In this document: positions 1 through 22,132 of the stretch, piece after piece
Layout: each line of letters begins with the position of its first letter
Numbering within the stretch: the stretch's first letter is position 1
NCBI GenBank assembly: GCA_949358305.1
Contig: OX442319.1
Coordinates: 6,822,001 to 6,886,000, forward strand
DNA length: 64,000 bases
From: Strigamia acuminata
Lineage: Eukaryota > Arthropoda > Chilopoda > Geophilomorpha > Linotaeniidae
Reading direction: 5' to 3'
Position numbers and translations under genes: made by a program
Notes under the pieces: model-generated
What the model saw: the letters and a program-made list of their open reading frames with translations, nothing else
Databases searched by the model: none
What the model was told of the DNA's origin: nothing

Positions 1-260
1 AATGGTTGCTTTTTATTTCTCTCCAAGTCTCATTTCTCTATACAACCAGAAAGCAATGTGCAGTGAGTAGAAAAATCCTCCTTCCTCCTCCTTGAACTCA
101 CCAGTGGCAGATCATCATGTGAAGCAGCAAGTTCAAGTCCAGTGTTTGCATTTCTTCAAGTCTTTGGCCAACTTCTGTGTATCAATTTTAGCCAAGCAGC
201 AGTCAAGTATTGCCGCCCCTCCTTCTGGCCTGGTTGTCGCCTGCGACCTTGCCAGAAACA
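1..260 (+). repeat. 5' LTR of element E, 3' portion only
   Basis: Identical by eye to 5233-5492, the end of the 3' LTR, and ends in CA at 260. Comparison with the 1358-bp 3' LTR implies about 1.1 kb of this LTR lies left of the window. Confidence 0.95.
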
Positions 261-263
261 ATT

Positions 264-284
264 TGGTACCGTGAACCAAGGATT
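264..284 (+). promoter_or_regulatory. Primer binding site candidate of element E
   Basis: A TGGTACCGTGA stretch begins three bases after the LTR end. Closely similar stretches follow the 5' LTRs of BEL-A, BEL-B and BEL-D in this window. The reverse complement ends in ACCA, as expected for the 3' end of a tRNA. I do not assign the tRNA species. Confidence 0.6.
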
Positions 285-1081: not shown

Positions 1082-4000
1082 ATGGCTACATTATCCGCTG
1101 CTGATCTCGAGGAAAAGGAGGTCATTTGGAAAGCAAAGGCTCAAGGAGCCGAGGATCTGCTGGGATCTTCAGTCAACATTCTAGACGGAGGAGAGCTGGA
1201 AGCCATGCAAATAACGGTTGACCAGCAATTGAGTGATCTCGCCGACGAATTGAAAGCTCTTAAAGACGAGTCAAAAAGAGAGGACTATTTAGCGGGGCTT
1301 CAACGAATTGAAGACATTAGAACCAGAGTAAATTTATTGAAGCAAAGAGCAAAAGTGTCTGGAAAAATGGCAGGGCAATTTGGTTCCCATCCGGGACAGA
1401 ATTCCAGTTTAAACCAGACGTCCGCTTCATCTAGGAGAAACACGAGATTGCCGAAAACCGACATTGCCAAATTTAGTGGCGATGCAACTGAATATAGAGG
1501 TTTTGCGAATTTATTCGAATCAGCAGTTGATCAGAACACGGAGCTTTCGAACGTGGAAAAGCTTATATATCTGAGGTCATGCTGCACTGGGGCTGCAGAA
1601 TCCGCAATCAAGTCGTACCCAATAACTGATGACGCCTACCCATTAGCGAAAAATACATTGGAGAGTCTATTCGGTTCTGAAAACACGCAGAGAAATGCGA
1701 TTTCAAAGATGATTAGGGAGTCGAAACCCGTTTTCGATCTCTACCCAATCGAGCCACTTAAAGCTCTATTCACGTCATTGGCATCTGCTGTCCGGACCAT
1801 GGCGCAACTGTCTGTGTCAGTTGACACTACTGGAACGTACCTTATTCCAGAGCTACTTAGAAAATTTCCACCGGAGATCTCCCAACGTTTTTACCGAAAG
1901 CATCAAGGAAAAGTTGATGATGTTAACGTTTTTCTGGACTTCGTAGCAACCGAGATACAACTGGCTGAATTGTCGGAAGAAAGCGTTCTCCTTAAGCGCG
2001 CTCATCTGAAGAAGTCAGAAAAATTTGAGAAAACTTCAAAGGAAACAAGAGAAAGACCAACTGGAACCATGTCCTCATTCGTGACTTCCGAGAATGGAAA
2101 ATTGAGTATGAATTCCAAGTCAAATCCAAACCGCAAACCCGCCTGCGCTTATTGTGATGGTGATCACGCACACGCAAATTGTGATGCGGATCTCGATGTA
2201 CCAGCGAGGATCGAAATAGTGAAGAAGAAACGACTTTGTTTCAACTGCTTGAGATATAACCACACAGCCAAAGAATGTACCGTGAAGTTTTGTTGTCGCT
2301 TGTGTGGTGGAAGACATCACACATCGATCTGCAACAAAAACAACAAAGAAAAAGCGATTACACCAAAAGAAGAAAACGTGTCTACTAATGTATCGCTTAC
2401 CGAGTCGGTGGAGATTCAACTGATGGTCTTCACTGCTCTTTTTGTGAAGAAAAATGGAGACATGTACCCCGTCCGCGGATTATTAGATCCAGGAAGCCAT
2501 CGCTCCTACGTCACGAAGAGACTAGTAAATAAATTCCGGATGCAAAAGATCGAGACACTACACACGATGACACAGTGTCTGCTCAACAAAAAGCCAGTTC
2601 CGACGACACATGATGTCTTTAGATTCGAACTACAATCAAGACACGGAACAAAAAAGACATCAATCCTTGCATTAGAAACCGACACACTCCCGAAAGTCAA
2701 AGGGATAATTGGAGCAGAAGCCATAAAGCAAGTCCAATCACTCGGACTTGAGATGGCTGAGATACATCCGTCAGAATCGGAAGACATTGACGTCTTATTA
2801 GGAAGCAACGCATGGTGGAAGATTTGTCAAGGTGGAAGCCGAAAAATCAACGACGAGTTGGGATTAATGGAGACAATTTTTGGGTGGATTCTAAACGGTC
2901 GACTGAAACCAAACAACCCGCTTGAAGAAAACATGGCAGCGTGCAACATTTCTTGCATGGCGGTCGAGTCCAAAGAAGAAGTGATCTCAAATCAACCTGA
3001 AAATGACGAAAACAAAATAGTCCAATTAATTCCGAAATCACTGCCCAACATGAATGGCGAACCCGGTGTGAATAAACAGACAGACGTCACACCTTCTTGT
3101 TTTGCCGCGAGCCTCTCCAGTGGTCTGGAGAAAGAGGAACTGGACACCACCCTCCAAAAAACGAAAAAGTCGTTCAAGGATGGAGGATTGGTCAACAGAA
3201 CTCCAAGCTCGGACATGAAGCCGGAATTACGAGGGCGAAATCAGTTAGAGTCAGGGAGAAAGAACGTCGAATTACTTACAAACCAAGTGCCCAGTTTACC
3301 CAAATTGTGTGCAATCGTGAGATGGAGTGGAAACGTGATTCTGAATTTCTGGAAAAAGAAAATTGATTTGTCAACCAATCAAAAGGGAATTCATCTCATC
3401 ATTGGTCCAATGTATGCGGGGAAAACGACCAAGTTATTGAAGCTTTTAGAAAAGGAAGAGAAGACGTCGTCCCTGCTAATTAAACACTCCAATGACGATC
3501 GTTACAGTAAAACCGAAGTCGTGACCCACGACGGTCATCGACGAGAAGCAATCGCGACCAGTAGCCTAACCAATGCTGTGGAAAAAACGAAATTAGTGAA
3601 GACAATCGGAATTGACGAAGGACAGTTTTTTCCCGACATTTTTACTTTTTCAAATGAAATGGCTGAGCAAAAGAAAAAGGTAATAGTCGCCGCATTAGAC
3701 GTCGACTTCAAGAGGAAGCCATTTGATCAGATATCCGAGTTAGTTCCACTAGCCGAGTCTGTTGTGAAACTACAAGCAAAATGTTATTTTTGCGGAGATA
3801 AAGCTGAATTTTCAAGACGAATTTCGCACGAAACCCGAGTCAAGATGATAGGAGGGATCGACAAATACAAACCAACCTGTCGAGTATGTTTCTCAAAGCC
3901 CATGAAGTCCCTAGAGACGAAAAGGAAAATCATCAACGGAATTATTCGACTTAGTTGTATGATTGTCAACCGAAGAATACCTCCGTGGATACCAAATTTG

Positions 4001-4099
4001 ATCCGTCAAAGAATCATGCCACCCAGAGTGGAATACAAAAAGGTGAAAGAGGTCTCCCAAATATTATCATCAAAGACCAGAAGTAATCAAACTAAATGA
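1082..4099 (+). CDS. BEL/Pao Gag-protease polyprotein fused to TK1-type thymidine kinase
   Basis: 1005 aa from the ATG at 1082. A GTG nine bases upstream is in frame but unlikely to be used. Residues about 120-270 are the BEL Gag region (DUF1759-like). CCHC/CCHH-type knuckles start at Cys355, Cys386 and about Cys404. The protease-like region (DUF1758-like) has LDPGS with Asp469. BEL similarity ends near residue 630. After a linker, residues about 770-945 form a thymidine kinase of the TK1 family: P-loop GPMYAGKTT at 775-783, DEGQFF at 845-850 with the catalytic Glu846, LVPLAESVV, and zinc cysteines 901, 904, 933 and 936. TK1 enzymes phosphorylate thymidine to dTMP with ATP. A basic tail of about 60 residues follows. 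There is no RT, RNase H or integrase. Inference: the kinase is packaged with Gag or freed by the protease and raises dTTP for reverse transcription. Domain identity is strong; the role is not shown. Confidence 0.93.
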   Translation: MATLSAADLEEKEVIWKAKAQGAEDLLGSSVNILDGGELEAMQITVDQQLSDLADELKALKDESKREDYLAGLQRIEDIRTRVNLLKQRAKVSGKMAGQFGSHPGQNSSLNQTSASSRRNTRLPKTDIAKFSGDATEYRGFANLFESAVDQNTELSNVEKLIYLRSCCTGAAESAIKSYPITDDAYPLAKNTLESLFGSENTQRNAISKMIRESKPVFDLYPIEPLKALFTSLASAVRTMAQLSVSVDTTGTYLIPELLRKFPPEISQRFYRKHQGKVDDVNVFLDFVATEIQLAELSEESVLLKRAHLKKSEKFEKTSKETRERPTGTMSSFVTSENGKLSMNSKSNPNRKPACAYCDGDHAHANCDADLDVPARIEIVKKKRLCFNCLRYNHTAKECTVKFCCRLCGGRHHTSICNKNNKEKAITPKEENVSTNVSLTESVEIQLMVFTALFVKKNGDMYPVRGLLDPGSHRSYVTKRLVNKFRMQKIETLHTMTQCLLNKKPVPTTHDVFRFELQSRHGTKKTSILALETDTLPKVKGIIGAEAIKQVQSLGLEMAEIHPSESEDIDVLLGSNAWWKICQGGSRKINDELGLMETIFGWILNGRLKPNNPLEENMAACNISCMAVESKEEVISNQPENDENKIVQLIPKSLPNMNGEPGVNKQTDVTPSCFAASLSSGLEKEELDTTLQKTKKSFKDGGLVNRTPSSDMKPELRGRNQLESGRKNVELLTNQVPSLPKLCAIVRWSGNVILNFWKKKIDLSTNQKGIHLIIGPMYAGKTTKLLKLLEKEEKTSSLLIKHSNDDRYSKTEVVTHDGHRREAIATSSLTNAVEKTKLVKTIGIDEGQFFPDIFTFSNEMAEQKKKVIVAALDVDFKRKPFDQISELVPLAESVVKLQAKCYFCGDKAEFSRRISHETRVKMIGGIDKYKPTCRVCFSKPMKSLETKRKIINGIIRLSCMIVNRRIPPWIPNLIRQRIMPPRVEYKKVKEVSQILSSKTRSNQTK

Positions 4100-4134
4100 T
4101 GGGTTGTTCGCACTTTCTTTTCGCCGGCAATCTA

Positions 4135-5492
4135 TGTTGCTAGCAACATAAAGGAAAGCTGCTAAACGTCTTAAAAATTAGTCATCTGGAATTATTAAAA
4201 AGGGTTTTTAATATTTATCTTAGATTGGGAATTTAATTAGACACTTATTTGAATATAAGTCTTCTTTGAGTTAGTTTGAGTGAATTTCTCAGTACTGGTT
4301 GATCTGACCGGATAAATCTGGGAAGAAAAGAGTTTTTACATTAGTTATTTATCCACTTAGAATTTATTTTCTATCTTGTTTACCTGTGTTATGCATGTTT
4401 TGATGTTTCCAAGTGTTTTCCTGTTTCCAGTCCACTACTGTCAATGTAGTGACAAGGTGTAATGATGCTCTCAGACAGCAAAAGGGTACTAGAATGAGAA
4501 ATGTATGTTATTATCAGTTTTAAGCTGTTTCAATCAATTTCTGTTTGTTTTCTGTATATTACTAACCAATTAAGCGTTTTGTTAACTTAGATTGTGTGTA
4601 GCCTGTCTAGTGAGCTAATTTCAAGCCTTTCTATCTTCCTGCAAGTGATCTCTGTTTACATTGTCGGCCATTACTGTGGGAGTGGTCTACTTGTATCTGT
4701 AAAGAGAGGAGAAAATGTTTAATCCCAAAGAGTTTTTGTGGGTTCTGATTAATAATTAATCACTTAATTATTATGCAATGTAAAAGTGTTAAGTTTAAGA
4801 TTTATCTGTGTTGATTTATAACTTAACTTCTGCACTTACTGTAAAGTTGCCAGCTCATTGGTCTAAAATGTCTTTACTTATTCTTTTCTCTATTTTATGA
4901 GTTGTTCAGTGTGTTTTAGAGTGAATAATTTAGTTCTCAACGAGCATTGTGGTTAGAGACTGTTGTTAATGTATACTTTTGCATTTAATGTCAAATACTT
5001 GCTGTTAGGCTTATGTGTTTTCAACTATTAACTTCTACGGTAGTTTTGTTGTGCCAGCAGTACTTATTTCTCTTTACAAGCACTTAGAGACCTCTGTAAC
5101 TTTAAGTGCAAGTGTCCTTATACAATGTGGAGATAGTTACACTTGTTGTTTCTTATTATTGTTAAAGTGTGACTTCTTTGTAATATCCTCGTGATTCAAT
5201 TGTAGTAGTCTTGTTAAGAATTTAGAGAATAAAATGGTTGCTTTTTATTTCTCTCCAAGTCTCATTTCTCTATACAACCAGAAAGCAATGTGCAGTGAGT
5301 AGAAAAATCCTCCTTCCTCCTCCTTGAACTCACCAGTGGCAGATCATCATGTGAAGCAGCAAGTTCAAGTCCAGTGTTTGCATTTCTTCAAGTCTTTGGC
5401 CAACTTCTGTGTATCAATTTTAGCCAAGCAGCAGTCAAGTATTGCCGCCCCTCCTTCTGGCCTGGTTGTCGCCTGCGACCTTGCCAGAAACA
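4135..5492 (+). repeat. 3' LTR of element E
   Basis: 1358 bp, starting TGTTGCTAGCAACA and ending CCAGAAACA. The start resembles the TGTTGCGAGCAA start of the BEL-A LTR, and the preceding bases (4111-4134, TTTTCGCCGGCAAT) resemble the sequence before the BEL-D 3' LTR. An AATAAA at 5229-5234 is a candidate polyadenylation signal. Confidence 0.9.
5229..5234 (+). terminator. Candidate polyadenylation signal in E 3' LTR
   Basis: AATAAA about 260 bases before the LTR end. The cleavage site is not determined, and other positions are possible. Confidence 0.35.
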
Positions 5493-5669
5493 CCTTTATC
5501 ATTTTCAACTGAATGCAGTTAGGCCTGATTTCTCATGATGCAGTTAGGCCTAGAGTTTGGGCTGAGAGGTCAACTTGTTTCATCAACCACTATACAGTCT
5601 CGGGCGGTCTCCAGAGTTTACAGACCAATTCGCCAGTATTCCTTGTGAGAGCCAAGGTTGTTTGCTACA
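5493..5669 (+). repeat. BEL-A copy 1 5' LTR, last 177 bp
   Basis: Matches 35907-36083 and 43467-43643, the ends of other BEL-A LTRs, and finishes GCTACA. It is separated from the rest of its LTR by the insertion of element E. Confidence 0.93.
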
Positions 5670-5683
5670 GGGAGCTGAGTTTT

Positions 5684-5704
5684 TGGTACCGTGATTCCAG
5701 GATT
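5684..5704 (+). promoter_or_regulatory. Primer binding site candidate, BEL-A copy 1
   Basis: TGGTACCGTGATTCCAGG begins 14 bases after the LTR end, an unusually long spacing. It is conserved at 36098 and 54716. Confidence 0.55.
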
Positions 5705-6349
5705 TCGTGCACGTTTGCGCAGCGTGTGCGTTTCAGTGGTCATTTGGGCGTTCAGCAAGTGGCTCAAGTGGTTTGGTGCGCGCCAGTTGGTTCGTCTTGT
5801 GCGGCTGGTTCCGCGAGCGTCCGGCATCAAGTGCGCACGCCAGAGAGTCACGTGAGAGCGGCCATGGACATCCTGAGTCTGCCAAGTAATTCACAACGCA
5901 ATGTGCAAGTTGATCAGTTGCTGCCACCTGAAAGAAGAAGATTATTTAGTTGATTAAAGTGGTTTTGGTTGGGTTTTTATTGGGATTACTTGATGTGCCC
6001 TCTCAGGGGGGAGGGGAAGTGTGTTTTTTTGCATTTAAGTAGCAATTTAAGTTTGTCTCGCTCTAGATAACTGCACAAGCAGGAGAGCACAGTTTAGAAG
6101 TAGTTAACAGGAAATAGTCTACTTTAGAGTTCAGGGAATTTTTGGGTGTTGCATCACTCAATTTCCTCAGCATAGAAAAGTTTAGCACCAGTTAAGAGAA
6201 TTTTTGAGTGTTGTGTCACTCAGTTCTTTAGTTTAGCAGTTAGTGTATTTGGTCACTGTTTGGCCAACTGGTACTTGTGTTTTGTCTGGTGTGTGTCTTT
6301 GGTTTTTGGCTGATTGATTGTCTTCACTTTCTGCCATTCCAGGTCTGAC
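5705..6349 (+). other. BEL-A copy 1 leader with repeated GTGTTGCATCACTCA-type motif
   Basis: Untranslated leader. Two imperfect copies of a 62-bp unit begin at 6136 and 6198, each holding a GTGTTG..TCACTCA core. The end of the leader (TCACTTTCTGCCATTCCAG, up to 6341) looks like a 3' splice site just before the start codon. A 146-codon ORF at 5513-5953 spans LTR and leader but is broken in BEL-B, so I do not call it a gene. Confidence 0.55.
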
Positions 6350-7985
6350 ATGGCTACAGGAGGTGGATCAAGGTCAGGATCAGGGAGAACGACGCCAACA
6401 ACGGTTGAGCAACAACCGCCAGAAGAAATGGACGTGTTGGCTGGTAGATTCACGACGATTGGAATCTCCTTGGATGCGGTTTTGAGAAGGTCTTTGACCT
6501 TAAAAGACACAGGAGAGTTGGAAGCCATAGAAATGGTCGCCGATGAAAAGATCATGAAAATGATTAACGACCTGAACACTATGCAGCCAAAGCTGACAAG
6601 GGAGCAGTATTTAGGATATCTAAGGGAAATCGAAGAGTTAGAGACACCGATTTCAGTTCTTAAAAGCAGAACACAGATGTCCAAGAAGCACGTGACTCAT
6701 TGGTCAGCTAACCCGGCAAATGCTTCAGCGTCAATGACCAATACGTCCCAGGGTTCGATTTTGAACCAGACCTTGTCACAGTCGACAAGAAGGCATAATA
6801 ATGCAAAGCTTCCTAAGTTGGAAATGCAGAAATTTAATGGAGATGTGACGACATTCCGTCCCTTCCTAAGCAGCTTTGACTCGGCGGTCCACAGCAACCC
6901 TGATTTATCAGAAATTGAGAAGTTGCAATACTTGCAGTCGCTGTGTACAGGAGAAGCCGCCATGCTGATCTCTGCATTCCCTTTAGTGGATGGTAATTAC
7001 AATTTAGCAAGAGAAGAGTTGGTCCGTTCCTATGGGGACGATGAAGCCCAGAGAGTGGCTCTGGTCAAGTCCATAAGGGACATGAGACAGGTTGCTGAGT
7101 TGCATCCGGTCAAAGCTGTCAGGACACAATTGACCAAGGTGTCCACTGCTATCCGCTTGCTGGAACAGTTGAGCGTTCCAGTACAGACTGCTGGTCTGCT
7201 TCTGGCACCAGACGTGCTGAGAAAATTTCCACCTGCCATGGTAATGAGGTTTTACCAGCAGCAAGGAGCTAAGACCTCAAATTTAGTGACAATTTTGAAT
7301 TTCTTTGCGGCTGAAGTTCAGCTCTTAGAGCAAATGGAAGACGTCATGGGAACAGGAGGTCTCGCAACAAAGAAAGACAAGTCTGGAAGTTCCGACAAGG
7401 ATAAAGATCAACGCAAGGGCACAATGTCTACATGCGCTACATCCAAAAGAGCCAAAGAGTCTTCTAGCCCAAAGCTGACCGTGGAAAGCGCAATTTGCAT
7501 TTTTTGCAAAGAAGGCCATGCCAACACCTTCTGTAAAAAAGAAATGAGCGTGGCAGAGAAGTCCACCATAGCCCAACAAAACAGACTTTGCTTCAATTGC
7601 CTGCAAGAAGGACACAGAGCAATGCGATGTCAGGTTAAAACCAGCTGCAGGACTTGCGGCGGACGACATCACTCGTCCATCTGCAGGAAATTGAATGCCC
7701 AGAGTAGAGGTGGTGTAGAGAAGCCCAAGGACGTGAGTGCAAACGTCTCCTTGGCGATCTCATCAACGCTTCAGTTGATGATATTCACAGCGGAGTTAAA
7801 AACAAAGTCTGGAGGTTCGCACACGATACGTGGCATGTTAGATCCGGGCAGCCATCGGTCCTACATTTTAAAGAGTGTAGCCGACCGGATACGGTTGAAG
7901 AGTTGTGGGTCGATCGAAGCCACCGCACAACGCCTCAATGAGGAGAAAGCTGGATCGGCGTCTTATGACGTTTATAGGATACTCC
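6350..7985 (+). pseudogene. BEL-A copy 1 Gag-Pol, N-terminal half (cut by BEL-D)
   Basis: From the ATG at 6350 the protein matches residues 1-545 of the intact BEL-A copy 2 product. It holds the DUF1759-like Gag region, three zinc-knuckle clusters and the LDPGS protease motif. At 7986 the LTR of BEL-D begins. The frame stays open until 8209, but those last residues are LTR sequence, not native protein. The protein resumes at 17408. The copy cannot make RT or integrase unless the insert is removed. Confidence 0.95.
7981..7985 (+). repeat. Target site duplication ACTCC flanking BEL-D
   Basis: The same five bases follow BEL-D at 17408-17412, and the intact copy (near 38395) has ACTCC only once. 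This proves that D inserted into BEL-A. Confidence 0.97.
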
Positions 7986-9548
7986 TGTTGCAGGTCAACA
8001 AGACAGAAGGAAAGGAATGGCGATGCGTATCCAAATTCAAGACACTTGAGCTCGCCCAAGGTCGTATGGCGTGGCTAGTACGAAAATCGCACTGGAGAGC
8101 AATAAATCCGCAACAAATGGCATTGTTGAACCGCTGGAACAATGTGGAGAACACCTGCACCAAGTATCCAATAGGTGGCGGAAACATAAGTTGGCCTGAG
8201 AAATTTTAAACTACTCACTACACATTGAATGTGTTTGAAAATAAGCCTAAAACAAGAGCTAATAAAACACAACACATTTATTCAAAGGTTGGTTAATAAC
8301 TGAAGAAATTACAGCAATTAGATTGGTTCTTAGAGAACCGCACATGCGCAGTACCGAATATGGCACGCGCCAGGCCGATAGCGGCGAAATACAGATACAC
8401 GAAAGAATTCGTTACCATGGTAACGGAGGAAACAAGATTACGGCAAAGTTGGCATTTGCTTAAAAATGCACTAAAAATACATTGAATTACATTGAAATGA
8501 CCACAAGAATGCGGTGAACAAAAAAGCTAATCACAACAATGTCCAAAAACACGTTAAACAATGAGATATTTGCAATAAACCGATCTCGGAAAGAAAGGAT
8601 TGACGATAGCCAATCACAGGCCAGGAAAATTACATAACGATCACATTTGAAATTCGATCGGTACAAAAGCACAAAATTATCAAAGAATACATACTGAATA
8701 ATAATGCAATGTAATAGTAAATGCAAATTATGTGATATAAAATACAAAAATAACGGTTACATTGTGTAATCGTCGCTTGGGACAAACATGGCGACCGACG
8801 AACATAACAAAGGTGTTGGATCAAACATGGCGTCCGGCGAACATAACATCGGCGGCAAAACTACACGTAAAATGAATGTAAAAACACTAAAATGTAAATA
8901 ATCAATAAAGTATCGATTAAATTATAAGAATAATTATCAATTCTCTTCACAAAACATCGGAATAAAATACACAGATTGAATAAATACGAATTTATCGGCC
9001 AAACGAACATTCCCGGCTGCGCTTTTATGGCAGACGGAAACGAACGTTCAAACCAATCAAACGGAACTTCCAAAGCAGTTTTGATGCATCTAGATAGAAA
9101 GAGCATGTTTTAATTAGTAGAAACGAATGTTTAATAAAATTCCAAATGATTAGAAAAGTACCAAACAAAAGGTTAGAAGGCGGAACCGTAACTTTACGGG
9201 AAACAGAAAATATGACTTCACTAGCATCGCAAATGTATGCTAGGAAACGAAATTTGCACCAAAACAGTTCGAAATCAATACAAACTCTCAAAAAACAAGT
9301 GAATAAGTCAATAAATGCACGGAATAAGATATTTGAAATCAATACAAAGCATAAACACTACTAAATATTGAAAAGTATGAATAAAAATCAAGTCAAAACA
9401 CTTTAATAAGCAATAAAAATCTGAAAAGTGAAAAAATACCAATTAGGCAAAGGAAATTAAAACACTTAAAGATTTTAATCAACTCAAAGTAAATGGTAAA
9501 AATATTGACAATAAAATAGCACAACAATCTCTACGCTGTCTTGCAACA
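7986..9548 (-). repeat. BEL-D 3' LTR (left on the plus strand)
   Basis: 1563 bp, matching 15845-17407. On the plus strand it runs TGTTGCAGG to CTTGCAACA. It contains a perfect 16-bp palindrome with GTTACC..GGTAAC at 8410-8425, a CATGCGCAGT site near 8344, and two CAAACATGGCG motifs at 8783 and 8822. Confidence 0.97.
8410..8425. promoter_or_regulatory. Palindromic X-box-like (RFX-type) site in BEL-D LTR
   Basis: CGTTACCATGGTAACG is a perfect palindrome and fits the animal RFX X-box pattern GTNRCC-N(0-3)-RGYAAC. It is present again in the other LTR at 16269-16284. Binding is inferred from the motif only. Confidence 0.45.
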
Positions 9549-9607
9549 GCGAATTGCCGGCGAGAGGACAGAGATGGAGAACCACGCAAAAAATCACAAA
9601 AAAAAAA

Positions 9608-12600
9608 TCACTCAAGTTCTAGGGCTCTCACATGCTTGACTGACCTTTTTAACTCACGTCCATCGGGTAGCACAACTTTTATCACACGGATTTGACCATC
9701 CTCACCGGGAAAAATTTCTTTTATCCTGGCAAGTGGCCAAAAATATGGGTTAGTACCCATTTTTTCTAGAAGCACTATTTGGTCTACTTTAGGGTTTTTG
9801 AAGAACTTATCACCTTTTGATTCATAAAAATTCCTCAATTGCATGAGGTAACTCTTTTTCCAAATTTTCCAGAACTCCCAAATAAATTGACGTCGTTTAA
9901 TGTCCAGTTTTCTCAAATCGGATTTTTTAATTGCACTCAATTGTTTGTTTATTAGGTATTTAGGCATACCTCCTGTTAAGAAGTTTTCAGGTGCCAAAAT
10001 TCTACCACCATCAACACTGTCGGGGACATAAGATAAAGGTCGTGAATTTAGCACTGAACTAATTTCCAGAGCCAAAGTTTGGAGAGTTTCTAAGTCTACG
10101 GTGCTGCGCAACAATGTCTTTCGAAGTTTATCTTTTACTGAGCGGACTAGACGTTCCCACGCTCCGCCCATCCATGGAGACAGCGGTGGGATGAATGTCC
10201 ATAGCACCCTTTTTTCAGATAGGAATGTTTTCACATCTTTATGACCGATGAGTTTTCCCCACGATTGTAATTCGAGGCTTCCGCGCTCAAACGTCTTACT
10301 GTTGTCAGAGAAAATCTTCCCGGGGTATCCATAGCGTGCCCCAAATCTTCTCATTGCAAGCAAAAACTTTGGCACAGAAAGGTCCTCTGATACTTCTAAA
10401 TGTATGGAACGGGTCACCATACACGTAAAAAGCAAGATATATACTTTTTTCTTTTCTTTCTTGTTGCTGCCGACATAAATGGGACCCAAGTGGTCAACTC
10501 CGGTGTTTTGAAATGGCGCCGCTGGTGTCACACGTTCAGCAGGAAGGTCACCCGTTGAAGGGTTGTTGCGTGCAAGTTTTCCTCGTCGGCAAATCTCACA
10601 TTCTCGAATAACTGTTTGTATAGTTCTTCGTCCTCTTATAATCCAAAATTGTTCGCGTAGGTGATACAAAGTTTCGCTTATGTCACCGTGAAGCAACTCC
10701 AAATGCACTTTTTTAATTAACAGTCTTGTTATCCAACTATCATAATGCAAAATAATTGGATACACTTCATCAAATGTCAATAAAGATTTTTTCAAGCGGC
10801 TACGAAGTCGAAGTAATCCGTCCTCGTCAATGAAGAGCTCGAAATTGCGTAGGGTGGAGTGTTTAGACAGTTTTCTTTTGTTTTTCACATCATCAATCTC
10901 CTCAGAAAAATGTAATTTCTGAGAAAACTGCAGGATCTTCAATTGGTTGTCCTCTAACTCGAGTGGCGAGAGAGGCTCACCGCGCAAAAGTTTGTTTTTC
11001 CATCGCAAAATGTATGAGAAAACTCTCAAAAGTCGGTTGTAATTTCGGAATCGTTTGAAGAATCGACCAATAAAGCTTTCTGTCACTTGAATTGTCATCA
11101 CAACGATTTTTCGTTCCTCTTCTGGAAGAATCTCTTGTATAATTTCTGTTTTTTCTAGTTTTGAGACATCAACTCCAAACCACCAAAGTTTATTTTGCAT
11201 CAATGTTTTTGAGTTATGTGGTCGAGTTAATAAATCTGCTGGGTTAAATTCCGTTGGTACATGAGACCATTGTTTGGGTTTGGTTGAAGAAGTAATTTCT
11301 TGCACACGGTTTGAAACGTATGGCTTCCACACGTTTTTGTCACTGTTTATCCAGGCTAAAGTTATGGTGGAGTCAGAGTAGTAACGAATTTCAGTAACGG
11401 GGTAACCTGGAAGAAAGTTTTCTAACAGGTACTTTGTCATTCTCACTCCTACCACTGCTGCAGTTAATTCAAGTCGAGGAAGAGTCACTTTTTTCGTCGG
11501 CGCAATACGACATTTACTCAACAATAAAGTTCTTTTGCCCTCCAGATTGACGACAAAAATTGAACAGCCAAATGCCTTAGTGCTTGCGTCACAGAATACT
11601 TCTAAAGTGATATCTTGACCGGAATAAGTCTGTAGCCAACGTTGAACTTTCAATTCTTTCAATTTTTGTATGTCTTGACTCCACTCTTCGACTTCTTTTT
11701 TCTCTGAGTCAAGAATCTTTTCATCCCAGTTTTTTGTCCTAATCCAGATTGCTTGAACTAGCAGTTTCATTTGAAGCACAACAGGAGCAATGAGTCCCAT
11801 TGGATCGAATATGGAAGCCATTAATGAAACAACTTCTCGCTTTGTATTCGGAATTTTTTCAATTGTCGGAATGTTAAACATCATGACATCTTCTGCCGTG
11901 TTCCACAATATTCCAAGCATTTTTATAATTCCTAAGTCCGAAAACTCCTCTCCTCGCATATGAAAACCTTCTTTTTTCAAATTGTTGAAGACGTCCTTGC
12001 TTGAGGTCGCCCACTTCACGAGGGGAAGCTTTCCGTCGTCTAATATCATTTTCAGTTTCTCGCAATGTGATGTTGTGTCCGCTGTAAAATCTCCTCCTGA
12101 CGTCAAATCATCCATGAAGATTCCATCATCGAGTGCGTCGACTTCTTTTGCATGAGTTTCTTCAAATTGTTTCGCTTGTTTCCTAATCGTCGCACACAAG
12201 AGGAATGGAGAAGAAATGACGCCAAATGGCACGACAATCATTCTCAGAACCATTAGATTATTCCACAAATTTTGCCATGAGTATGGCTCTTTGAAATAGT
12301 CACGAGCGACCCACAAAAAACGTAAAAAGTTTGTTTGAGTTGGGTTGATCATAACCTGGAGAAACGCTTGCTTAATGTCTGCTATTATTGGAATACAATA
12401 GAGACGGAATCTCACAATAACGAGAATTAAGTCTGGGTTGAGGGAAGGTCCCGGAAATAGACAGTCATTGAGGGAACGCTTTCCTTTTTTCGCTGAAGAG
12501 GCGTTAAACACCACTCTAAATTTTGTCGTGTCGCGATCCTCCTTGATTACAGGGTGGTGAGGTATATTGTAGGTTCCTTTCTTCAGAAAACGCTCCTCTT

Positions 12601-14848
12601 TTGGGACTTCCTCCGCGTGATTTTCGTGAATATACTGCCACATGGACTCGTCGTAACGTTTTTTGTAATCCTCGTTGGCATCTATTCTTTTGAGCGTGTT
12701 GGCCAGTTGGTTCATGGCCAACTCCCAATTAGATTCCAAGTCGACTTCCTGTCCATTAAATGGCAGCATGACTTCATAACGTCCATCGTCTAGACGTTTC
12801 GTAGTTGATTCGAATCGATCGCGAATAAAGTCGGATTCTTTTTCTCCCGCATTTATTCCGATTGCTTCCAAGTTCCACAGTTTGTCCAATTTTTCTTGGA
12901 TGTTTAAGTCGCATGTGTTGCAACATGTTGTCAATTCTTCTTCATCTTCGAATAAATTGGTGTTCCCCGCCGCTCCGGACAAGACCCAACCAAAAATTGT
13001 ATTTATTAATCCAAGATCTGCGTTTACTTTTTTCTTGCCGTCCTTAACGACCTTCCACCACACGTCGACTCCTAAAAGCACATCGATTTGAGAAGTCTTA
13101 GCTGGTAGGTCTTCAGCAAGTTCAAGGTTTAACTTCTTCACCTTGTCTATTATTGATGAGTTAAGAATGCCCTGCACTCGTGGCAAATTTTCCACAGAAA
13201 GCATTGAAAGTTTCAAATCTTGAGTGTCATTTTTACTCTGCAGTGTGACATTAAACACATCATAGTCCGTGGCTGCTGGAGACGAGTCGTTGAATCTCTG
13301 TGTGGTGGCAGAGACACTGCCGCATTTTTTCAGTTTCAGTCTTTCAACAAATTCTTTTGTGATGAACGATCGATGGCTTCCCGGATCAATCATCCCTCGA
13401 ATGCTGTGGGTTCCTCCTGATTTGGTTTTAAGATCCGCGGTGAAGATCATTAGTTGAAGAGTCGTCGAGATTGCGCATGAAACATGTGTTGTTACTTGTG
13501 GCTCCTTCGGCTTCTCCGCAGCGCTTGTTGAATTCTTCACCTCGGATTTTTTGCATATTGTGGAATGGTGTCGCCCACCACAATGTTTACAAGAAAATTT
13601 GACCTTGCAGTCTCCCACTCTATGTCCAGTTCTGAAACAGTTAAAACACAGTCTGTTTTTCTTTACTATTTCGATTTTCGCGTTGATTTCGAAATCCTTT
13701 TTACAAGAGCCGTTTAAATGTTCATCATCACAAAAAATGCACTTGTTTGTCTTGAAAAGCGCATTCTTGCTTTCAGATTTCGGTTCACTCTTCGTTTTTG
13801 CACTAGTAGACTGCTTGGCGTCTTGAGTAGTTGCGCACGTGGTCATTGAACCTTTCACTTTCGGTTTCTCCACCTCAGATTTTTCATTCTTGTCTTTTTT
13901 CGATTTTTCCGAAACGTTTTCAGTTCGTTCGGCCATCGCAACTTCATTCACAAAGAAATTGAGCAACGTAACAATGTTCTTATTTTGAATTCCGTGAACT
14001 TGGTAAAATCTTAATGCCATTGAAGTTGGAAACTTGCTAATTATGTCGGGCAATAAGAAAGCTCCGGAAGTTTGAATTGGAATCTTAAGTTGCTCGAGAA
14101 GTCTAATAGTCGCAGAAATCTTAGTCAAATTCGTTTTTATCGCTTTCGTTGGATATACACTCGTAACAGATTTTAATTCTCGAATTGATTTTATTAACGC
14201 AGTTTGTTGGGCATCCTCATCACCAAAATGTCTTTCTAGTTCTTCCCTGGCCAGGTCATATGATTCCTCGATCAAGGGAAAAGTTGAGATGAGAATTGCC
14301 GCTTCTCCAGTACACATAGTTTGTAAATACTGGAGTTTTTCAATGTTACTCAGGTCTGGATCCTTGTGTACGGAGGTCTCGAAGTTGCTTTTAAATGTTC
14401 TGTACTTCAAAATATCTCCGTCGAATTTTACGGAATCCAATTTGGGCAGCTTCGAATTTTTTCTAAACGTTGCTGTCGCGTTCAAGGTTGTGTTCTGATT
14501 TGAGCTTGTCGACGTATTTAATCTTCCTCCCAAAGTTGGAAGTGATCGCTTTGAGATTTCGTATCTCGTGCGAAGAAGATCCACTCTTGCTTGCATAGTC
14601 TCAAGCTTGTCAATGCATTCTAGATAATAGCCGTGGTCCGAATATTCCTGTAGATCATTCAGCGCACCGACTATTCTCGTTTCTTTTGGGTTCGCAGTTT
14701 GCACCAGCGCTTCCAGTTCTCCTGGATCTGCTGTCTTCTCCGATATAGACAACAGATGATTCATTGCAGTGACTTGCGACTCCCAACGTTGTTGTAGCAC
14801 TTCGATTTGATCCTCAGTTAGAAGATCTCTCATTGTAGGTTCCGCCAT
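9608..14848 (-). CDS. BEL-D Gag-Pol polyprotein (Gag, protease, RT, RNase H, integrase)
   Basis: 1746 aa without interruption; the ATG is at 14848 reading leftward. In order: a Gag region of DUF1759 type, zinc knuckles (CIFC, CFNC, CKHCGGRHH), a protease-like region with IDPGS, a reverse transcriptase with FMDD at residues 911-914 (the usual YMDD with Phe first), RNase H with FCDAS, an integrase zinc domain (HLELLHG ... CEIC) and an integrase core with Asp1452, Asp1515 and Glu1565. The D-x62-D-x49-E spacing agrees with BEL-A. The protein should assemble particles, reverse transcribe the element RNA and integrate the cDNA. The stop codon lies 59 bases from the 3' LTR. Confidence 0.97.
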   Translation of the reverse strand: MAEPTMRDLLTEDQIEVLQQRWESQVTAMNHLLSISEKTADPGELEALVQTANPKETRIVGALNDLQEYSDHGYYLECIDKLETMQARVDLLRTRYEISKRSLPTLGGRLNTSTSSNQNTTLNATATFRKNSKLPKLDSVKFDGDILKYRTFKSNFETSVHKDPDLSNIEKLQYLQTMCTGEAAILISTFPLIEESYDLAREELERHFGDEDAQQTALIKSIRELKSVTSVYPTKAIKTNLTKISATIRLLEQLKIPIQTSGAFLLPDIISKFPTSMALRFYQVHGIQNKNIVTLLNFFVNEVAMAERTENVSEKSKKDKNEKSEVEKPKVKGSMTTCATTQDAKQSTSAKTKSEPKSESKNALFKTNKCIFCDDEHLNGSCKKDFEINAKIEIVKKNRLCFNCFRTGHRVGDCKVKFSCKHCGGRHHSTICKKSEVKNSTSAAEKPKEPQVTTHVSCAISTTLQLMIFTADLKTKSGGTHSIRGMIDPGSHRSFITKEFVERLKLKKCGSVSATTQRFNDSSPAATDYDVFNVTLQSKNDTQDLKLSMLSVENLPRVQGILNSSIIDKVKKLNLELAEDLPAKTSQIDVLLGVDVWWKVVKDGKKKVNADLGLINTIFGWVLSGAAGNTNLFEDEEELTTCCNTCDLNIQEKLDKLWNLEAIGINAGEKESDFIRDRFESTTKRLDDGRYEVMLPFNGQEVDLESNWELAMNQLANTLKRIDANEDYKKRYDESMWQYIHENHAEEVPKEERFLKKGTYNIPHHPVIKEDRDTTKFRVVFNASSAKKGKRSLNDCLFPGPSLNPDLILVIVRFRLYCIPIIADIKQAFLQVMINPTQTNFLRFLWVARDYFKEPYSWQNLWNNLMVLRMIVVPFGVISSPFLLCATIRKQAKQFEETHAKEVDALDDGIFMDDLTSGGDFTADTTSHCEKLKMILDDGKLPLVKWATSSKDVFNNLKKEGFHMRGEEFSDLGIIKMLGILWNTAEDVMMFNIPTIEKIPNTKREVVSLMASIFDPMGLIAPVVLQMKLLVQAIWIRTKNWDEKILDSEKKEVEEWSQDIQKLKELKVQRWLQTYSGQDITLEVFCDASTKAFGCSIFVVNLEGKRTLLLSKCRIAPTKKVTLPRLELTAAVVGVRMTKYLLENFLPGYPVTEIRYYSDSTITLAWINSDKNVWKPYVSNRVQEITSSTKPKQWSHVPTEFNPADLLTRPHNSKTLMQNKLWWFGVDVSKLEKTEIIQEILPEEERKIVVMTIQVTESFIGRFFKRFRNYNRLLRVFSYILRWKNKLLRGEPLSPLELEDNQLKILQFSQKLHFSEEIDDVKNKRKLSKHSTLRNFELFIDEDGLLRLRSRLKKSLLTFDEVYPIILHYDSWITRLLIKKVHLELLHGDISETLYHLREQFWIIRGRRTIQTVIRECEICRRGKLARNNPSTGDLPAERVTPAAPFQNTGVDHLGPIYVGSNKKEKKKVYILLFTCMVTRSIHLEVSEDLSVPKFLLAMRRFGARYGYPGKIFSDNSKTFERGSLELQSWGKLIGHKDVKTFLSEKRVLWTFIPPLSPWMGGAWERLVRSVKDKLRKTLLRSTVDLETLQTLALEISSVLNSRPLSYVPDSVDGGRILAPENFLTGGMPKYLINKQLSAIKKSDLRKLDIKRRQFIWEFWKIWKKSYLMQLRNFYESKGDKFFKNPKVDQIVLLEKMGTNPYFWPLARIKEIFPGEDGQIRVIKVVLPDGRELKRSVKHVRALELE

Positions 14849-15807
14849 TTTCTCTGTCCTCTCTCACAAAAAATTCGGCTGTGAAATTTGGAAAGAACAG
14901 ATAAAAACGGGCATGACAATTCAACTTTGTTTTAATTTTTAAGAGAATAAACCTTTTTATTTTATCCCCCAAAAATATCTCAACATTCACGGTTTTTGTT
15001 TTAACTTTAAAGAGAATAAACTTTTTAATTTTATCCCCCAAAAAGCACTCAATTTTCACGGTCCTTGGTGACACGTGAGAATTTTAGAATATCAAATGTT
15101 TGGCCAATCGAGGATGACCAAAAATTTGAGCGGTTTTGTGTACGTAAATAAAACGTGACACAATTACCCTGCACAGTTTGAAAATAATTGACGGTTTGTT
15201 TTGCAACAAAACACGCCAAAAAACTATTTTGAAAATAATTGACGGTTCGTTTTACAACAAAGCACGTCAATAACCCCTAACATTAAATTTTGACTCTCCT
15301 GACAGCTCATTCAACTTGAAACTAGTCAGTTCTACTCGAAATAAATCTAATCTCCCCCGCTTATGGCGGTTATAGTGGAGAACTAAGCATGCAATGAAAA
15401 GACACTTCAAAAGTTGTAAAATAGACACTTTATCGAAATTTTCCCGAAAACCAACAAATGTAACTACCAAAATCCCATAAAGACACTTGATACTGTTCCC
15501 CTTAATAACCAAAATCTCCAAAATTTCAATTTTATAAGGCAAAACACTGTAAAATGCAATTATTCCAGGGGCGAATCCGCTTCCCAACACGACGCGTTGT
15601 GTTATCCTGTATTGTGACCTTGAACTCCAACTGCAGGCACACTTTTGTTCGTTTTCGCCGCCAAAGCAGTCCCCGTCGTAACTTCTGTCACGTTGAACGT
15701 TGACTCTTGACATGGGTGACGAAACACGAACGTATTGTTCCTCCGTCGCACCAAACACTTTTTCAAACGTATTGATGATGCACTGGAAAAACTCACGAAT
15801 TGCAGAC
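14849..15807 (-). other. BEL-D leader with two sets of tandem repeats
   Basis: This is the untranslated leader between the primer site and the ATG. Two imperfect direct repeats lie in it: a 69-bp period around 14942-15080 (AGAGAATAAAC core) and a 51-bp period around 15178-15280 (TTGAAAATAATTGACGG core). A 259-codon ORF (15267-16046, minus) begins in the LTR and ends here. It resembles nothing I know and is probably chance. Confidence 0.6.
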
Positions 15808-15829
15808 GGAATCCTGGTCACGGCTACCA
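15808..15829 (-). promoter_or_regulatory. Primer binding site candidate, BEL-D
   Basis: On the minus strand it reads TGGTAGCCGTGACCAGGATT, 15 bases inside the 5' LTR end. It parallels the TGGTACCGTGA sites of BEL-A, BEL-B and E. Confidence 0.55.
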
Positions 15830-15844
15830 AAAGCTTCGCATCTG

Positions 15845-17407
15845 TGTTGCAGGTCAACAAGACAGAAGGAAAGGAATGGCGATGCGTATCCAAATTCAAG
15901 ACACTTGAGCTCGCCCAAGGTCGTATGGCGTGGCTAGTACGAAAATCGCACTGGAGAGCAATAAATCCGCAACAAATGGCATTGTTGAACCGCTGGAACA
16001 ATGTGGAGAACACCTGCACCAAGTATCCAATAGGTGGCGGAAACATAAGTTGGCCTGAGAAATTTTAAACTACTCACTACACATTGAATGTGTTTGAAAA
16101 TAAGCCTAAAACAAGAGCTAATAAAACACAACACATTTATTCAAAGGTTGGTTAATAACTGAAGAAATTACAGCAATTAGATTGGTTCTTAGAGAACCGC
16201 ACATGCGCAGTACCGAATATGGCACGCGCCAGGCCGATAGCGGCGAAATACAGATACACGAAAGAATTCGTTACCATGGTAACGGAGGAAACAAGATTAC
16301 GGCAAAGTTGGCATTTGCTTAAAAATGCACTAAAAATACATTGAATTACATTGAAATGACCACAAGAATGCGGTGAACAAAAAAGCTAATCACAACAATG
16401 TCCAAAAACACGTTAAACAATGAGATATTTGCAATAAACCGATCTCGGAAAGAAAGGATTGACGATAGCCAATCACAGGCCAGGAAAATTACATAACGAT
16501 CACATTTGAAATTCGATCGGTACAAAAGCACAAAATTATCAAAGAATACATACTGAATAATAATGCAATGTAATAGTAAATGCAAATTATGTGATATAAA
16601 ATACAAAAATAACGGTTACATTGTGTAATCGTCGCTTGGGACAAACATGGCGACCGACGAACATAACAAAGGTGTTGGATCAAACATGGCGTCCGGCGAA
16701 CATAACATCGGCGGCAAAACTACACGTAAAATGAATGTAAAAACACTAAAATGTAAATAATCAATAAAGTATCGATTAAATTATAAGAATAATTATCAAT
16801 TCTCTTCACAAAACATCGGAATAAAATACACAGATTGAATAAATACGAATTTATCGGCCAAACGAACATTCCCGGCTGCGCTTTTATGGCAGACGGAAAC
16901 GAACGTTCAAACCAATCAAACGGAACTTCCAAAGCAGTTTTGATGCATCTAGATAGAAAGAGCATGTTTTAATTAGTAGAAACGAATGTTTAATAAAATT
17001 CCAAATGATTAGAAAAGTACCAAACAAAAGGTTAGAAGGCGGAACCGTAACTTTACGGGAAACAGAAAATATGACTTCACTAGCATCGCAAATGTATGCT
17101 AGGAAACGAAATTTGCACCAAAACAGTTCGAAATCAATACAAACTCTCAAAAAACAAGTGAATAAGTCAATAAATGCACGGAATAAGATATTTGAAATCA
17201 ATACAAAGCATAAACACTACTAAATATTGAAAAGTATGAATAAAAATCAAGTCAAAACACTTTAATAAGCAATAAAAATCTGAAAAGTGAAAAAATACCA
17301 ATTAGGCAAAGGAAATTAAAACACTTAAAGATTTTAATCAACTCAAAGTAAATGGTAAAAATATTGACAATAAAATAGCACAACAATCTCTACGCTGTCT
17401 TGCAACA
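15845..17407 (-). repeat. BEL-D 5' LTR (right on the plus strand)
   Basis: 1563 bp, the same length as the left LTR and identical where compared. Transcription of D would start in this LTR and run leftward. The X-box palindrome is at 16269-16284 and the CAAACATGGCG pair lies near 16642 and 16681. Confidence 0.97.
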
Positions 17408-20400: not shown

Positions 20401-21050
20401 GTAAATTGCTGACCAAGGATGGGATCCGGACGTTCCTTTCGGAGAAGCGAGTGGTTTGGTCGTTCATTCCACCATTGTCACCATGGGCCGGAGGAGCCTG
20501 GGAGAGGCTTGTGCGGTCGGTGAAAGATAAATTGCGTAAGATGCTGCTGCGCAGGACCGTAGATTTGGAGACGCTACAGACGCTAGCCGCCGAGATAGGT
20601 TCCGTGCTTAACTCAAGGCCACTGTCCTACGTGCATGAGGAGGTTGACGGCGGGAGAATTCTCAGCCCTGAGAATTTCCTCACTGGAGGAATGCCCAAGT
20701 GGGTAATCAACCGTCCGCTGCACGCGATACAGAAAAAAGACCTACGGCGATTGGATAGAAAGAGACGACTTTTCATTTGGGAGTTCTGGCGGATTTGGCG
20801 CGAGAGTTACCTGAAACAACTAAGAAATTTTCATGAAGTTAAGGGCGACTCACGTTTCAAGAATCCGGAGGTCAACCAGATAGTATTGCTGGAAAAGGTC
20901 GGCTGCAATCCGTACTTCTGGCCGCTGGCACGGGTCATCGAGGTCCTACCCGGCGAAGATGGGTTTGTGCGCGTCGTGAGAGTAGTTACAGCCAATGGAA
21001 AGGAATACCGCCGCTCGGTCAAACACGTGAGGGCCTTGGAGCTGGATTAG
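17408..21050 (+). pseudogene. BEL-A copy 1 Gag-Pol, C-terminal part
   Basis: Continues the protein broken at 7985 and is equivalent to residues about 545-1757 of BEL-A copy 2. It contains the RT (YMDD at nucleotides 18537-18548), RNase H (FCDAS), the zinc HHCC domain and the complete DDE integrase core. No stop or frameshift is seen within it. It has lost its start codon and Gag only because BEL-D is inserted, so the damage is recent. Confidence 0.95.
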
Positions 21051-21386
21051 CGTGGTCGATTTGTTTGAGCCGGCTGTCTGCTTCTTTTTCGGCTGGCAGC
21101 GATGTTGCGAGCAAGAACGCAACAAAAAGATCTGGAGATTTCACGTTGTTTATCTTCTGAAAGGAAGAAAAGGCTTTTTTAATTTTGTTGTCAAGTTTGA
21201 ATAGATTTTTAACACATATCTGACATGTCCAGTTGGTTTGCTGCTTTGTTGACACGATCCTGGAAGTTCAAGGGGGTTGCCACTTCGCCTGCCACACCTG
21301 GAATGTTTGAAAGTTGTGTTTTTAGTCTTTTGTAATTGTTTTATGTGTCTTTTTCACTTTTAGGTGTTGTTTCTAGTATTTGTAAG

Positions 21387-21478
21387 TTCTCTCCCGTTTC
21401 CAGTTCACTTGCGAGGGAGATAGTCGTGCACCGGCAAGATGGCCGCCATAGCGCAAGTGAACTGGGAGACGGGAAGAA
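21387..21478 (+). promoter_or_regulatory. Long hairpin with ATGGCCGCCAT loop in BEL-A LTR
   Basis: The arm at 21387-21413 pairs with 21452-21478. The loop holds ATGGCCGCCAT (21439-21449), two overlapping YY1-like cores facing each other. The same structure occurs at 42374-42465 and, with compensating base changes, at 53415-53504. Confidence 0.6.
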
Positions 21479-22127
21479 CCTGAAATAAGCACAATTGCAG
21501 TTTTAGTGCTTGTTTTGCTTGTGATTTAATTTATACTAACTTGTATTGGTGTTTAAGGAACTCCCCAGGTGTCCTGGGTCGCTGGATGAACGTTGGACAT
21601 CGTTTGTGAGCGTTCGGGAGCGTCGGGCGTGAGCGCACGCCTTGCGACGCCTCTCGTGGTCGTGTGGGTCCTGCAAATGAGTTGAATTGGTCGGGTTTCA
21701 ATGTCCAAGCACTGGGAAAGTTGTACTGACCGTTCTAGGACGCAGATCCATCGTTGAGAAGGCCTGTGAGTCGCTTGCGACCTTGTTTGGCTCCATTCAC
21801 GTCATTTTAGCAGTTGCATGGTCGCCATCTTGGATTTGGTGCTGCACTGGTGCCCTGTTATTATTTAGTTTGGGGTTTTAATGAAACCTGGACATAGGGA
21901 ATATATACTAGTTATTGTTTGTATAAATTACCAATATTAAGAGTTATTAATCTAAGCCTTTACCTTTGTTATTGCATGGTTGTAAAGGGGTTAAAACTGT
22001 GACACGTTGCGCCCTCTGTTGGTGGTGATTGGGTTTGGGCTAAGCATTGTGTTTTGAGTGTAATTAATGTTAGTTTTAGCCTTTGAATTATCTGTTAAGT
22101 TTAAGTGAAGTGCTGTTTGCACAGGTC

Positions 22128-22132
22128 ATAAT
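22128..22132 (+). repeat. Target site duplication ATAAT flanking copia-X
   Basis: Repeated at 35038-35042. The uninterrupted LTR of copy 2 near 43115 has the site once. Confidence 0.95.

Follow-up and report, generated by a model that had tools for sequence, protein, structure and literature searches.

A thymidine kinase joined in frame to Gag and protease in a multi-copy BEL/Pao-related LTR element of Strigamia acuminata

Results

A single frame from Gag to thymidine kinase

We studied a 64,000-nucleotide stretch of the genome of Strigamia acuminata (Chilopoda, Geophilomorpha, Linotaeniidae; GenBank assembly GCA_949358305.1, contig OX442319.1, positions 6,822,001 to 6,886,000, forward strand), here called the window, which contains a long terminal repeat (LTR) element carrying a thymidine kinase (TK). 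Frame translation and a Pfam scan revealed a single open reading frame on the plus strand (1082..4099), from the ATG at 1082 to the stop at 4097-4099, encoding a protein of 1005 amino acids (aa), P0001. Residues 131-272 (1472..1897) match DUF1759 (Pfam 2e-17), the Gag-like domain of BEL/Pao elements, so that the Gag part of P0001 is of the BEL/Pao type. A protease (PR) region with the motif LDPGSHRSYV follows at residues 446-625 (2417..2956). Pfam at E 0.01 calls no protease in P0001, and this region was assigned by alignment with a gag-pol frame elsewhere in the window (9608-14848), to which P0001 is 36% identical up to residue 625 and shows nothing significant past it. Since the similarity stops at residue 625, the end of the protease region marks the point where the reverse transcriptase (RT) part begins in the related gag-pol. 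The remainder of the frame consists of a fast-evolving linker (residues 626-764, 2957..3373), which served as an internal control for selection, a TK1-type thymidine kinase domain (residues 765-940, 3374..3901), and a C-terminal extension (residues 941-1005, 3902..4096).

The kinase assignment was made by Pfam, structure matches, a predicted model and residue alignment. The Pfam TK family (PF00265) matches residues 770-937 at 2.6e-54, scoring 184 bits where the cut-off is 20.6. The closest solved structure is human TK1 (2wvj, 1.1e-41); further TK1-type enzymes, vaccinia TK (2j87) among them, are matched as well. An AlphaFold2 model of residues 762-1005, built with 22 sequences, has a mean predicted local distance difference test score of 86 and superimposes on human TK1 (1xbt) with a root mean square deviation of 1.4 and a template modelling score of 0.95 by target length; the lower score by query length, 0.63, is due to the C-terminal extension. 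This extension is common to the two element families A and B described below and is predicted to be mostly helical, with falling confidence; it contains a predicted 25-residue helix and the motif RRIPPW in family A, or RRLPPW in family B. The original prediction, made from the letters alone, had described one frame running from a BEL-type Gag-protease into a TK1-like domain. The frame, the Gag and the kinase are borne out by the domain search, and the motifs it had named are all present (P-loop GPMYAGKTT at 775, DEGQFF at 845, LVPLAESVV, and CxxC pairs at 901/904 and 933/936); its protease, as described above, stands by alignment to the gag-pol rather than by a Pfam call. The P-loop, DEGQFF, the zinc CxxC pairs and the fold are those of a TK1, or type II thymidine kinase. 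No dUTPase domain was matched by Pfam in P0001 or in family B.

A complete element lacking pol

The frame lies inside a complete 6.59-kb LTR element, and the window begins within its 5' LTR (whole LTR C8:6820903-6822260, C8 being the window's contig). All the following features are on the plus strand. The end of the 5' LTR (1..260) is 100% identical to 5233-5492, and the LTR pair is 99.93% identical over 1361 aligned bases. LTR alignment placed the 3' LTR, of 1358 bp, at 4135..5492; it begins with TGTTGC and ends with ACA. It is followed by a target site duplication, CCTT (5493..5496), which is also found directly before the 5' LTR (C8:6820899-6820902). The element thus has the paired LTRs with TG...CA ends and the target duplication of BEL/Pao elements, and the window copy is young and recently integrated. 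It was inserted in the LTR of another BEL element, as 5493-5669 recurs at 35390-35566 and 43467-43643.

The internal region comprises an 821-bp leader, the 3018-bp frame, and 35 bp from the TK stop to the 3' LTR. The 1005-aa frame contains no RT, RNase H or integrase domain, and the 35 bp behind it leave no space for one. Because these three are absent, the element is a non-autonomous BEL/Pao derivative with the layout Gag-PR-TK, rather than a full BEL/Pao member; this absence of pol had been overlooked by the original prediction. A putative primer binding site (PBS), TGGTACCGTGAACCAAGGA, lies a few bases past the 5' LTR (264..282) and resembles those of family B and of the autonomous BEL elements of the window. 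Immediately 5' of the 3' LTR is the motif TCGCCGGCAAT (4121..4131), which was present at 30/30 fetched family-A loci. Across the genome, TCGCCGGCAAT stands beside TGTTGC at 280 sites, while the reversed pattern occurs at 0; the CTA spacer of family A was seen at 5 of the 100 listed places among these 280. We regard TCGCCGGCAAT as a candidate plus-strand priming signal.

Two element families and three further groups of kinases

We searched the genome of the window (237.5 Mb, 157 contigs) for TK sequences and scored the best 150 of 235 candidates; a second TK search scored the best 150 of 205. The 150 rows of the first search, to which the following counts refer, were sorted into families by hand on identity and frame. 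Family A, with the window copy, has at least 55 rows (84-100% identity), family B at least 45 (54-56%), family C at least 13 (52-55%), family D at least 32 (44-51%), and family E at least 5 (51%). A stop-free frame of 1009-1013 aa was found in 47/55 family-A rows, and the remaining rows were cut, partial or with a stop; a single interrupted copy on contig C127 accounts for two of the 55. At the 30 best-scoring family-A loci, which were fetched, no stop occurred over residues 266-1005 (30/30). The junction between Gag and TK therefore recurs at many loci of the same genome, as the earlier claim of a fused element would have it.

Searches with other parts of the element gave the same picture. 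All of the best 40 LTR matches (of 122 candidates) are 99-100% identical to the LTR of the window copy, and 39 of them lie within ~4.5 kb of an A-type TK row; the coordinates of the remaining one (C8:7127809) make it the 5' LTR of a copy with a nested A copy in its leader. With a Gag-PR query, the best 61 of 1312 candidates comprised 51 A and 10 B copies, and a TK row lies directly behind gag in 60 of them. The exception is C8:6961683 (frame 799), an interrupted copy; a partial TK row follows 18 kb further on. Gag relatives without TK rank beneath these 61.

A frame of 995 or 1002 aa is found in 37/45 family-B rows. The TAA flagged in most of these rows falls where the longer query overruns the family's own stop, and the second TK search found no stop within the domain. 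The family-B copy L032 (995 aa; Pfam TK 2.6e-54) is 52% identical to P0001 over its full length, which takes in the TK and the first part of the C-terminal extension. Pfam matches to its protease region are weak in this family (Asp_protease_2, 6.7e-4; DUF1758, 8.9e-4), both being below the curated cut-offs. In L032 the TK stop lies 93 bp before TGTTTCGAGCAACAG, the start of a TGTTTC LTR, with TCGGCGGCAAT immediately upstream of it. The upstream LTR of family B is 956 bp long (L061:406-1361) and ends with ACA, followed by TTTTTGGTACCGTGACCCAAGGATTTTG; the PBS-like site, TTTTGGTACCGTGACCCAAGGATTTTG, is similar to that of family A. No frame longer than 127 aa was present past the TK in the 4.4 kb read downstream. 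Because LTRs lie on both sides and no long frame follows the TK, the layout of family B is LTR-Gag-PR-TK-LTR, as in family A.

The copies are unevenly placed. On C8 all 15 scored family-A rows fall within 6.80-7.53 Mb of 14.7 Mb, and on C13 all 13 fall within 7.9-10.3 of 10.34 Mb; the scored family-B rows lie at 12.2-15.5 Mb on C5 and at 64.2-66.2 Mb on C1. This block-wise clustering suggests that copies insert into particular parts of the genome or survive there. Some family-B copies are spaced ~5.0-5.2 kb apart (C13:9876670-9882518, C5:14364466-14370311 and C21:205778-211371). Since a single LTR was seen in the stretch read between the C13 pair (L061), these pairs suggest tandem copies with a common LTR.

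Selection on the kinase domain

The ratio of nonsynonymous to synonymous rates (dN/dS) was estimated for each part of the frame by the Nei-Gojobori method, using our own scripts; pairs share copies and are hence non-independent. Pooled over the 30 family-A loci, which as the best-scoring ones are biased to intact copies, dN/dS rose from gag (0.03) through PR (0.12), TK (0.15) and the linker (0.43) to the C-terminal extension (0.74). Against the loci L037, L038 and L040, TK dN/dS was 0.20, and that of the linker 0.65-0.70; gag gave 0.04-0.05 to L038 and L037, and 0.19 to L040. Equal rates were rejected for TK (p 3e-4 for L037, 2e-6 for L040), while the linker was indistinguishable from neutral (p 0.33 and 0.35, respectively). 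Equal rates for TK gave p 0.01 and 0.005 in the two pairs tested within family B. The C-terminal extension looks constrained in comparisons with L040 and between families A and B (0.20-0.25), yet shows the 0.74 given above among near copies. Between the two families, gag, PR and TK have reached saturation at synonymous sites, and dN is 0.37 for TK, 0.365 for gag and 0.72 for the linker. In conclusion, the TK domain is under purifying selection, and the pattern fits a useful enzyme.

Catalytic residues

We aligned the element kinases with 13 TK rows of the protein search that were treated as cellular on the strength of their closeness and, where there was one, their name; several of these are unnamed metagenome proteins. 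Of the 55 columns invariant in these cellular-type rows, 45 are conserved in family A, 41 in B, 48 in C, 44 in D and 45 in E. Both A and B retain the P-loop Gly/Lys, Asp805, Arg807, Glu846, Gln848, Phe849, Phe850, Phe881, Tyr929 and the four zinc cysteines, and phosphorylation of thymidine would be the expected activity. At the site of human Thr163, as placed in our own alignment, family A has Ser, as do some other TK rows, and family B has Thr. The structure 2wvj is itself a human TK1 mutant, T163S, whose title reports a specificity moved towards a nucleoside analogue.

Kinases of families C, D and E and the source of the domain

A TK tree of 66 rows was computed, leaving out 3/62 TK matches shorter than 160 aa; a later tree was also computed without 14 long or distant rows. 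The kinases of families A to E form one clade (support 98/96), and in the later tree A+B and C+D+E each have 100/97. The 66-row tree leaves unordered this clade, 16 animal and protist TK1 rows that group together, several rows from metagenomes, the Kaumoebavirus TK, and the TK of P0106, a protein from a second dataset described below. The closest named protein to the element TK is a Timema TK (52%), compared with 38% for the Kaumoebavirus TK. The virus row falls outside the A-E clade, and an origin of the kinase from a large virus is not supported by these comparisons.

The original prediction had proposed capture of a host TK. This is not supported: neither TK search yielded an intron-split host TK1 among its scored candidates (best 150 of 235 and best 150 of 205), so that a split gene could be missed, and the nearest TKs in the same genome, those of families C, D and E, are themselves multi-copy. 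Family D is an intronless TK of 185 aa (L034, L050-L056). It lies in a repeat whose C1 (3.67 Mb) and C5 (9.50 Mb) copies agree at 100% over 5 kb and which is common to the loci piecewise at 99.9-100% over at least 10 kb; the scored family-D rows are spread across many contigs. One D copy has a copia gag-pol frame upstream, but the shared repeat starts after that frame, and family D was rejected as a copia element. Family E (L035, L048, L049) is an intronless TK of 220 aa, and the three copies compared lie in repeats that are 96-99% identical; near one of them is a 307-aa frame resembling the Ulp1/C48 protease (0.0018, below the Pfam cut-off). Family C (L033, L036) is an intronless TK of 181 aa, and two copies are alike over little beyond the frame and ~100 bp upstream; 9/13 family-C rows are on contigs C17 or higher.

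A kinase between protease and reverse transcriptase in P0106

A protein search with Gag residues 1-740, in which scoring was limited to the 7999 candidates with the most words in common, found 53 proteins, whose names are mostly arthropod, with one Trichinella. One of the 53 has a TK domain: P0106, a protein of 1266 aa from the source 'lgn', encoded on a 9.9-kb contig, which holds DUF1759, DUF1758 and TK (Pfam TK 5.8e-44). Its residues 1063-1252 align to BEL polyproteins behind the protease, where RT starts (best 36%, 8e-27); Pfam calls no RT in this short C-terminal piece. Because these residues align where BEL RT begins, the TK of P0106 is placed by sequence between PR and the start of RT. 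This is the same boundary at which family A leaves its similarity to gag-pol (residue 625). In the tree, the P0106 TK has a very long branch outside A-B. Trees that group it with A+B (p 0.37) or with the whole A-E clade (p 0.24) are not rejected by the approximately unbiased test, in keeping with either a single capture or independent ones. A search by TK words among proteins of 553-1759 aa found no other Gag-TK fusion in 3038 candidates; this is a weak negative, because P0106 exists and surfaced only through the Gag query. No viral contig encoding P0001 or P0106 was found by tblastn.

Candidate helpers and neighbouring elements

The gag-pol used above as the relative of P0001 (9608..14848, minus strand; 1746 aa) belongs to an autonomous-looking BEL/Pao element separate from the TK element, and has Pfam matches to Peptidase_A17, Integrase_H2C2, DUF1759 and DUF5641. 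It shares with the TK element TCGCCGGCAAT before the 3' LTR, TGTTGC/ACA ends, and a similar PBS. The PBS of this gag-pol element matches tRNA-His genes (anticodon gtg) over GAATCCTGGTCACGGC, and ARAGORN predicts tRNA-His at 2/3 loci tested. The PBS-like site of the TK element is at the same place and has similar letters, small indels apart. Because these cis signals are common to both, mobilisation of the TK element in trans by related BEL elements is plausible.

The surroundings are nested. At 5493-22132 in the window, the host BEL element is itself split by a BEL element with identical LTRs of 1563 bp (7986-9548 and 15845-17407). A 140-bp satellite with 67 copies (43645-53130) adjoins the nested BEL elements, and a centromeric region is possible. 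A further long gag-pol frame of 1614 aa lies at 28656-33500, which we take to be copia-like. A mitochondrial COI match had 11 TGA codons in frame.

Discussion

The element described here is a young, multi-copy, non-autonomous BEL/Pao LTR retrotransposon in which a TK1-type kinase follows Gag and PR in the place of RT, RNase H and integrase. We propose that the kinase is a replication module that raises thymidine triphosphate (dTTP), with RT and integrase supplied in trans, and we give this reading a probability of roughly 0.6. If expressed, the Gag-PR-TK product would assemble into particles, so that each Gag unit would bring one kinase. The kinase would act in particles or in the cytoplasm, freed or retained through the action of the protease in the loose linker. 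RT and integrase would come from related autonomous BEL elements with a similar PBS-like sequence and the same LTR ends and 3' motif. The kinase would then yield thymidine monophosphate (dTMP), and hence dTTP, where nucleotides limit reverse transcription, and the element would benefit by the job proposed for dUTPase in some retroviruses and Gypsy elements. The earlier suggestion that the element uses its kinase is thus upheld in part: selection on TK fits a useful enzyme, but such an account needs a helper, because an element with neither RT nor integrase cannot copy itself alone.

Several observations weigh against this proposal. In family A, 10/55 invariant columns are altered, one of them in the P-loop (F778Y), and in family B 14/55, with D873N among the residues carried by B; because of these changes, the specificity of the kinase may differ in the two families. 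P0106 has altered 19/55 columns (36 kept), including Gly847 and Gln848 of DEGQFF, Arg878 and Phe881, and on this account may be no normal TK. The selection estimates are not uniform either. A short linker piece from L039, whose sequence spans the TK end only, gave a dN/dS of 0.23, unlike neutral; within family B, where TK changes are few, TK dN/dS varies widely, between 0.05 and 0.85; and equal rates do not hold for the linker compared between A and B (p 0.01). Finally, the BEL gag-pol frames of the window are 36-38% identical to the TK element in gag, over long matches.

Two readings of the kinase's history bear on the proposal. The TK may have reached the element by exchange between mobile elements, and not directly from a host gene, which is compatible with a replication module and which we hold to be a serious possibility, somewhat short of even odds. 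The single A-E clade is in its favour, and so are the repeats that hold the compared copies of D and E, which extend over more than 1.9-5 kb and are 96-100% identical from one locus to another. An old host gene could equally have given rise to families C, D and E by copying, and no mobility machinery was recognised at D or E. The second reading, which the position of TK in P0106 brings up, is that an ancestral BEL/Pao element with gag, PR, TK, RT, RNase H and integrase gave rise to A and B as satellite families that kept Gag, PR and TK and dropped pol. The TK would then be an established replication module feeding reverse transcription in particles, possibly the helper's too. We offer this reading more tentatively.

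Could the TK domain have been retained for something other than dTMP, as an aid to Gag assembly or as a sensor of dTTP? TK1 enzymes are tetramers, the fold is kept, the TK stands at the end of Gag-PR, and the C-terminal extension is common to A and B, all of which would suit a structural or regulatory role. However, the P-loop Gly/Lys, the catalytic Glu, the Asp-Arg and the zinc cysteines are kept in both families despite a TK identity of only 55-57% between them, and the differences between A and B avoid the columns that are invariant in cellular-type TKs (13/55 vs 63/119, p 3e-4). We therefore consider such a role unlikely.

A host lacking its own TK1 might instead have come to depend on the element kinases, in which case loss of TK copies would be selected against. 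The scored searches with no intron-split TK1, and the further intronless TKs of families C, D and E, are what such an addicted host would show, but partial scoring could miss a split gene, and 84 full Gag-PR-TK frames in 100 rows exceed what a host would need and form the pattern of a replicating element. Dependence of the host is improbable. An accidentally acquired TK that spread along with no function is largely refuted, and we rate it at the same low level or slightly below. The youth of the window copy and the near identity of the scored LTRs mean that recent copies would be intact regardless, but the TK has a dN/dS of 0.15-0.20 next to a looser linker in the same frames, and was kept across the A-B split, over which synonymous sites are saturated. 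An assembly chimera or a single copy is ruled out for practical purposes by the 47 + 37 full frames, which lie apart from one another on many contigs, together with the target duplication.

The element, read as carrying a replication module, has several known counterparts. Accessory proteins acting on host deoxynucleoside triphosphate (dNTP) control are one route taken by reverse-transcribing elements. Gag-onc transducing retroviruses carry a cellular-type kinase gene fused to gag, which replaces pol and makes a helper necessary; these retroviruses arise sporadically, and their kinases are signalling kinases. The TK element likewise has a foreign kinase gene fused to gag in the place of pol; unlike those cases, the TK was kept through the split of families A and B. 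Another kind of fusion is Teratorn, reportedly a DNA transposon fused with a herpesvirus. With cellular TK1 and vaccinia-type TK, the element TK has sequence, fold and most catalytic residues in common, but it is fused behind Gag-PR, has a helical C-terminal extension, and in family A carries Ser at the place of human Thr163. With BEL/Pao elements, the TK element shares Gag, the protease region, LTR ends, the PBS-like site and the 3' motif, but not RT, RNase H or integrase.

The literature searched, consisting of titles and abstract openings, with subscription journals and bioRxiv mostly outside its scope, contained no description of a TK-bearing LTR retrotransposon. The passages seen of a 2009 survey of LTR elements mention dUTPase, and in these passages neither thymidine nor kinase appears (PMC2774666). 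A dUTPase lies between PR and RT in the LTR families Juno, Vesta and TelKA of bdelloid rotifers (PMC5408684) and in the fungal PosPlaTy3-5 (PMC2864245), the latter citing, as an assumption, that the dUTPase of viruses aids their replication in cells that do not divide. Such elements resemble ours in having an enzyme of nucleotide metabolism on board, at the PR-RT boundary that the TK also occupies in our element and in P0106. They differ in being Gypsy or retrovirus-like rather than BEL/Pao, in having dUTPase rather than TK, and in that PR and RT both flank the domain. The TK element may work like them, but it is not one of them. Maize Bs1 is described as an LTR element with transduced host gene sequence, no segment of which is full length (PMC13317346). 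Both are LTR elements with extra gene sequence, and on that description the TK element differs in keeping a whole enzyme under selection.

Here, a kinase that replaced pol was then kept by selection, in a natural, high-copy case, which makes it directly testable whether germ-line retrotransposition is limited by dNTP supply. If the kinase works, it would represent a further route, besides dUTPase and accessory proteins, by which reverse-transcribing elements face scarce nucleotides.

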